This document shows, piece by piece, positions 54,131 to 55,258 of a stretch of 64,000 nucleotides of DNA. The notes beneath the pieces were generated by a model. That model saw only the letters and a list, made by a program, of their open reading frames with translations, was not told the DNA's origin and did not search any database. Source of the stretch: an uncultured Prevotellaceae bacterium (lineage in GTDB: Bacteria > Bacteroidota > Bacteroidia > Bacteroidales > Bacteroidaceae); NCBI GenBank assembly GCA_946540735.1, contig CAMNIN010000013.1, positions 1 to 64,000 of the forward strand, read 5' to 3'. The position numbers and the translations under genes were made by a program. Numbering within the stretch: the stretch's first letter is position 1; each line of letters opens with the position of its first letter.

Positions 54131-54382
54131 GGTCGTCTCACGTATTTCTGAAATGTTTCGAATGTCAGTGGCAATCCTGGATGAAGCTGGCGTATGGATT
54201 GCTGTTGCGTTGGCAAATTTAGTAAAAAATAATGGAATCCTAACAAAAAAGGATGCCAAGTTTGCAAAAGATCTCTTTTTATTGCCGAATGGATCATTGG
54301 CGGCGATGTTGCACATCCGTTGATGCTGGTATGGCTGGCCATTCCCGTCATAGGGCTTCTTTCCTTCAATTCGACATTTTTA
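54131..54382. other. Divergent intergenic gap between GH5 and hsp20, left part
   Basis: This part carries the GH5 leader and its promoter on the minus strand (TAAATTTG at 54214-54221, with TTTTG at 54244-54247). No other feature is supported left of the dyad at 54372; the track ORFs here are shadows. Confidence 0.5.
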
Positions 54383-54395
54383 TGACAAAATGTCA
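54372..54395. promoter_or_regulatory. Dyad-symmetric element upstream of the sigma-54-like promoter
   Basis: GACATTTT and AAAATGTC are perfect 8-bp arms around a 6-nt centre; TGACAAAATGTCA (54383-54395) is a second, nested dyad. It lies 13 bp before the -24 element, close for an enhancer site. Confidence 0.55.
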
Positions 54396-54407
54396 CTTCA
54401 AGCGCAA

Positions 54408-54423
54408 TGGCACACTTGTTGCA
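54408..54423 (+). promoter_or_regulatory. Sigma-54-type (-24/-12) promoter of hsp20
   Basis: TGGCACACTTGTTGCA places TGGCAC and TTGCA in the exact register of the RpoN consensus (GG and GC 10 nt apart). No good TAnnTTTG box precedes hsp20. The predicted leader is about 145 nt. Neither rpoN nor an enhancer-binding protein gene is in the window. Confidence 0.65.
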
Positions 54424-54565
54424 TCAAACAGGGTGAAAGCTGCGAGTAAGCGAGAGCCATAAGGGCTTGCTCTTCAATGGCCGAGCGAAAGCAGTTCCGG
54501 CTGAAAGCTAATGCCAAGGACAATACCAAGGCATTCAAACAAAAACGTATAACTAAAATACAATT

Positions 54566-54572
54566 AGGAGGT
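54566..54572 (+). promoter_or_regulatory. Strong Shine-Dalgarno before hsp20
   Basis: AGGAGGT, 7 nt from the ATG. Other genes in the window lack such a site. Confidence 0.8.
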
Positions 54573-54579
54573 AAAGATT

Positions 54580-55176: not shown

Positions 55177-55258
55177 TGCGCCTGAAAGGACTCGAACCTT
55201 CACGTCGTAAGACACTAGATCCTAAGTCTAGCGCGTCTGCCAATTCCGCCACAAGCGC
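55177..55258 (-). tRNA. tRNA-Leu (anticodon TAG)
   Basis: On the minus strand the acceptor GCGCTTG pairs with CAGGCGC, the anticodon stem CTAGA/TCTAG encloses loop CTTAGGA (anticodon TAG), and a long variable arm marks it as class II. The T-arm has GGTTCGAGTCC. CCA is not encoded. Confidence 0.95.

Follow-up and report, generated by a model that had tools for sequence, protein, structure and literature searches.

To our knowledge, how chaperone genes are switched on in Bacteroidota, a dominant gut phylum, is poorly understood. The window analyzed here (the whole 64-kb stretch of DNA) raises this question through a small heat-shock gene, hsp20, whose upstream region the initial annotation had read as an RpoN (sigma-54) promoter with an inverted repeat and a nested dyad upstream. 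We estimate a probability of roughly 85% that hsp20 has a sigma-54 promoter activated by a dyad-bound enhancer-binding protein (EBP), most likely G000:C85, and that this arrangement belongs to a conserved heat-shock regulon.

Table 1. Features of the hsp20 locus, with positions in the window.
Feature	Position	Strand	Basis
hsp20, small heat-shock protein, 142 aa	54580-55008	+	ORF; Pfam HSP20, 5.6e-22
Putative sigma-54 -24/-12 promoter, TGGCACACTTGTTGCA	54408-54423	+	Sequence; kept before hsp20 throughout the genus
Dyad TGACAAAATGTCA, putative activator (enhancer) site	54383-54395	+	Sequence; register recurs elsewhere
Outer 8-bp inverted repeat, GACATTTT / AAAATGTC	54373-54394; arms 54373-54380 and 54387-54394	.	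Sequence
Predicted transcription start (+1)	54434	+	-24/-12 rule: 12 nt past the C of the -12 GC
Predicted 5' leader with stem-loops, 146 nt	54434-54579	+	From the predicted start to the ATG
Extended Shine-Dalgarno, AGGAGGT	54566-54572	+	Sequence

hsp20 lies behind a putative sigma-54 promoter

The promoter match, 157-172 nt upstream of the hsp20 ATG, conforms to TGGCAC-N5-TTGCW with exact GG-N10-GC spacing; the initial annotation had described it as an exact -24/-12 fit. The nested dyad is likewise present, in the form TGACA-N3-TGTCA. It ends 185 nt ahead of the ATG, and its center lies 18.5 nt before the TGG of the promoter, at about -45 from the predicted start. The promoter is the sole match in the 64-kb window with up to one mismatch, against a chance expectation of 1.54; for the dyad, 2.92 such matches would be expected by chance. 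The motif letters alone are thus within chance for 64 kb, and the case rests on position and conservation. The 13-mer dyad is kept in the close homolog L013. The perfect 8-bp inverted repeat around it exists as annotated, but is not kept in L013; it was rejected as the functional element on this ground and is probably incidental.

We found no good match to the Bacteroidetes box TAnnTTTG between 54140 and 54580, in agreement with the earlier statement that no vegetative promoter box precedes hsp20. The best partial matches (5/6) both lie upstream of 54265. No HrcA/CIRCE operator (TTAGCACTC-N9-GAGTGCTAA) was seen on reading the hsp20 upstream region. Downstream of hsp20, a tRNA gene occupies the opposite strand (55177-55258, -). 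Relatives of the hsp20 region also occur on secondary replicons in a plasmid collection (NZ_CP091789.1, 205 kb, Prevotella sp. E2-28; NZ_CP137560.1, 317 kb, Segatella hominis).

The promoter is conserved before hsp20 and other chaperone genes

Upstream regions were rated by a simple -24/-12 score (maximum 16.7), with thresholds of >=13, >=14 or >=15 depending on the gene. The hsp20 sample comprised 50 upstreams from the window's own genome and its relatives, mostly of the same genus with a few from other families of the order; promoters from related species do not count as independent samples. A score of >=15 was reached in 76% of these, compared with 0.16% of Markov shuffles and 2 of 173 (1.2%) upstreams of other, non-heat-shock large genes. 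The site is therefore kept before hsp20 orthologs beyond chance. Sites before hsp20 mostly fall 70-145 nt ahead of the matched start; that of the window is farther from its ATG (172 nt) because its leader is longer. A second hsp20 in the same genome (G000:C87) also has a -24/-12 site.

Other chaperone genes, scored in 28 genomes from 12 families, give a similar picture. At >=15, sites precede 52% of htpG and 39% of grpE genes (null 0.11% for each); and at >=14, 62% of groES (null 3%) and, more weakly, 22% of clpB genes (null 1.7%). For dnaK, 92% have a site at >=13 (null 7%). Within the window's own genome, sites precede both hsp20 copies, htpG, groES, dnaK, clpB, a thioredoxin gene and the primary sigma gene. 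This list is partial; most -24/-12 matches in that genome are intragenic and were left out of it. Counting against the sigma-54 explanation, the -12 box is relaxed (TTTGT) in the genome's own dnaK and clpB, and a terminator-like TGGCAA...TTTTT accounts for part of the grpE signal. The genome's own grpE was dropped as a clean example, its site overlapping a terminator-like repeat.

The sites before the primary sigma-factor gene (L063, G000:C2:13458) and the thioredoxin gene (L077, G000:C10:74401) are intergenic, and the latter has a dyad, TGCCATCGTGCCA, 57 nt upstream and in phase. TGGCATCGGGATTGCAA occurs at three intergenic places (L096, L100 and L109), at the first of them amid 'atcgggattacaaatcccgatg'-type repeats; these copies are apparently an interspersed repeat, not promoters.

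If hsp20 depended on an ECF factor, or on the primary sigma factor with its Bacteroidetes -33/-7 boxes, the sigma-54 match would be a product of chance, and about 1.5 such sites per window are indeed expected from the letters with one mismatch allowed. The strong conservation of the site before hsp20 and other chaperone genes and the lack of a good TAnnTTTG box make this explanation extremely improbable, and a chance match was rejected on the strength of conservation and the controls. RpoN control of hsp20 has very strong backing from the sequence: the site is kept across the genus, and the genome holds rpoN and activators. The proposal in the initial annotation is thus borne out at the sequence level, although a single-gene reading was too narrow, as the regulon also includes dnaK, groES, htpG, clpB and grpE.

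hsp20 leaders fold from the predicted start

Across 47 hsp20 leaders, folding of a 36-nt window is strongest with its first base at the predicted +1, and windows displaced by 5 to 40 nt fold less well. In 30 of the 47 the z score is below -1.5 across the first 45 nt. In a ten-sequence alignment, three of eight pairs changed on both sides. This onset of the hairpin in homologs provides independent support for the predicted start. The leader in the window is an exception: relative to L013, the closest homolog, it has about 72 nt of additional, structured sequence, and its first hairpin is weaker.

A ROSE/fourU-type RNA thermometer in the hsp20 leader is weakly supported: the median pairing probability of the Shine-Dalgarno is 0.37, and an Rfam search returned no thermometer match. 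Shine-Dalgarno matches of >=5 bases are found in 46/48 hsp20 and 13/18 clpB mRNAs (loci L010-L059 and L159-L177), and are mostly absent from groES (0/24), htpG (0/23) and grpE (2/23). Such sequences are normally ignored by Bacteroidia ribosomes, according to the portion of PMC9976891 consulted. This suggests that hsp20 and clpB may have special translational control.

Dyads lie on one helix face with the promoter

The dyad had been singled out earlier as an element to look for before other genes, and we found dyads at groES, clpB, htpG and grpE promoters of other genomes. Of 99 promoters, 43 have TGNCA-N3/4-TGNCA no more than 130 nt upstream of the site, where shuffles predict about 0.6; the reversed pattern occurs in none of the 99. 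Counted back from the TGG, dyad centers fall at 8.5, 17-20.5, 27.5-33.5, 39.5-42, 49.5-50.5, 60.5 and 70-75 nt. At a period of 10.5 bp this gives a vector length of R=0.825, which places the dyads on one helix face. A register near 18.5 is common to hsp20, clpB, htpG and grpE, with groES at 17-19.5. Since different genes share this register, it does not reflect only the common descent of one promoter. The dyad thus has the marks of a sigma-54 enhancer (UAS), a palindromic upstream site helically phased with its promoter. Counting against an enhancer are the absence of a perfect dyad at the genome's own htpG and rpoD, and the position of the hsp20 dyad, which is nearer the promoter than classical sigma-54 enhancers (-80 to -150).

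This proximity (centers at -34 to -46 in many cases) would allow the dyad to be the operator of a separate heat-shock repressor that blocks polymerase at a sigma-54 promoter, with the EBP bound elsewhere or acting from solution. Dyads are also found three to six turns farther upstream with the helix face unchanged, a phasing that fits a polymerase-contacting activator and that a repressor would not need. We therefore regard a repressor operator as unlikely, and favor an activator site.

As an unbiased test, a search of 84,980 prokaryotic species genomes for TGACA-N3-TGTCA-N(5-35)-TGGYAY-N5-TTGCA yielded at least 80 loci. Among the 80 listed, 77 are from Bacteroidota, and the list includes Hymenobacter and Marinoscillum, outside Bacteroidales. 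Motif search combined with reading of translations indicates that 67 of the 80 listed precede proteostasis genes (DnaK 24, Hsp20 21, HtpG 12, GroES 4, ClpB 2, ClpC 2, Lon 1, GrpE-DnaJ 1); the remaining 13 precede partial genes or genes without an assigned product. Gaps between dyad and promoter cluster at 11-13, 21-25 and 32-35 among the matches listed, with none of 16 to 20 or 26 to 31, the pattern having allowed 5-35. Judged by these motifs, the promoter and dyad pair is found before most major protein-repair genes across Bacteroidota.

A sensor-less EBP is the most likely activator

Sigma-54 requires an EBP. The rpoN search covered the window's own genome and detected the gene there, beside two true EBPs, G000:C85 and G000:C48. 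The former is a 415-aa protein encoded beside lptE, with an AAA+ domain (PF00158, Sigma54_activat, 3.5e-64) carrying a GAFTGA-like loop and a Fis-type helix-turn-helix (HTH_8, 1.3e-16). The loop reads GAFTDA here and GAFTGA or GSFTGA in several relatives. A domain search revealed no N-terminal sensor domain in G000:C85.

In six genomes reported as 99% complete (G003, G004, G009, G016, G036 and G037), the number of EBPs at E<=1e-30 is exactly one. It is orthologous to G000:C85 in every case (51-81% identity), with an lptE-like gene next to it downstream, and the six genomes still carry such promoters before chaperone genes. By elimination, this suggests that the C85-type EBP is the activator. 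In a rival reading, G000:C48 controls hsp20, alone or jointly with G000:C85, and this second protein does have the AAA+ domain of an EBP together with a Fis-type helix-turn-helix. Its N-terminus is cut by a contig end, and its gene has an NtrY-like kinase gene downstream. Several nearly complete relatives retain the promoter and dyad with the C85-type EBP only, and we consider a role for G000:C48 quite improbable. The regulon activator is thus most likely G000:C85.

Under this proposal, RNA polymerase with sigma-54 would transcribe hsp20 from the -24/-12 site, starting near 54434. Activation upon heat would come from an AAA+ EBP bound at the dyad, which shares its helix face with the promoter. 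The promoter would be part of a heat-shock regulon (dnaK, groESL, grpE-dnaJ, htpG, clpB, hsp20 and others) kept through Bacteroidales and extending to other Bacteroidota. As G000:C85 lacks a sensor domain, the heat signal would act in trans or through the level of the EBP; sensing in trans is probable, titration of chaperones on the model of PspA and PspF being one example.

Relation to known systems

A computational study (PLoS One 2025, PMC12316311) reports, in the portion consulted, that in Bacteroidia and Flavobacteriia sigma-54 promoters are statistically enriched before the genes for GroEL, IbpA (COG0071), GroES, GrpE, DnaJ, DnaK and Hsp90, and cites a PNAS 2009 Blattabacterium paper for sigma-54 dependent grpE. 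That portion links chaperone genes to neither an enhancer dyad nor helical phasing nor a cognate EBP. We found no published enhancer or activator for chaperone sigma-54 promoters in the full texts searched, which took in a minority of subscription papers. The computed enrichment is thus already known from what was consulted of that study, while the dyad, its phasing, a regulon drawn from one combined signature and a single candidate EBP seem to be new.

In Escherichia coli, too, a sigma-54 promoter precedes a small heat-shock gene, ibpB. The main heat-shock factor of E. coli is sigma-32, whereas most chaperone genes here seem to be under sigma-54. PspF-type EBPs combine an AAA+ domain with a Fis-type helix-turn-helix, lack an N-terminal sensor and are controlled in trans, PspF itself by PspA. 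G000:C85 shares this sensor-less architecture, but differs in its targets, its long linker with a coiled-coil-like stretch and its site beside lptE.

Gut Bacteroidota therefore probably use an unusual route to induce their heat-shock response. We think it reasonably likely that the main Bacteroidota heat-shock regulon relies on sigma-54 and one sensor-less, lptE-linked EBP, not on a sigma-32-like factor or HrcA; this EBP would bind helically phased TGNCA-N3/4-TGNCA dyads that lie unusually close to the promoter, with chaperone feedback in trans. This offers a concrete, testable answer: a sigma factor, an enhancer sequence with a phasing rule, a set of target genes and one candidate activator. 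The proposal would account, too, for the retention of sigma-54 control of chaperone genes in nearly complete genomes with a single EBP.
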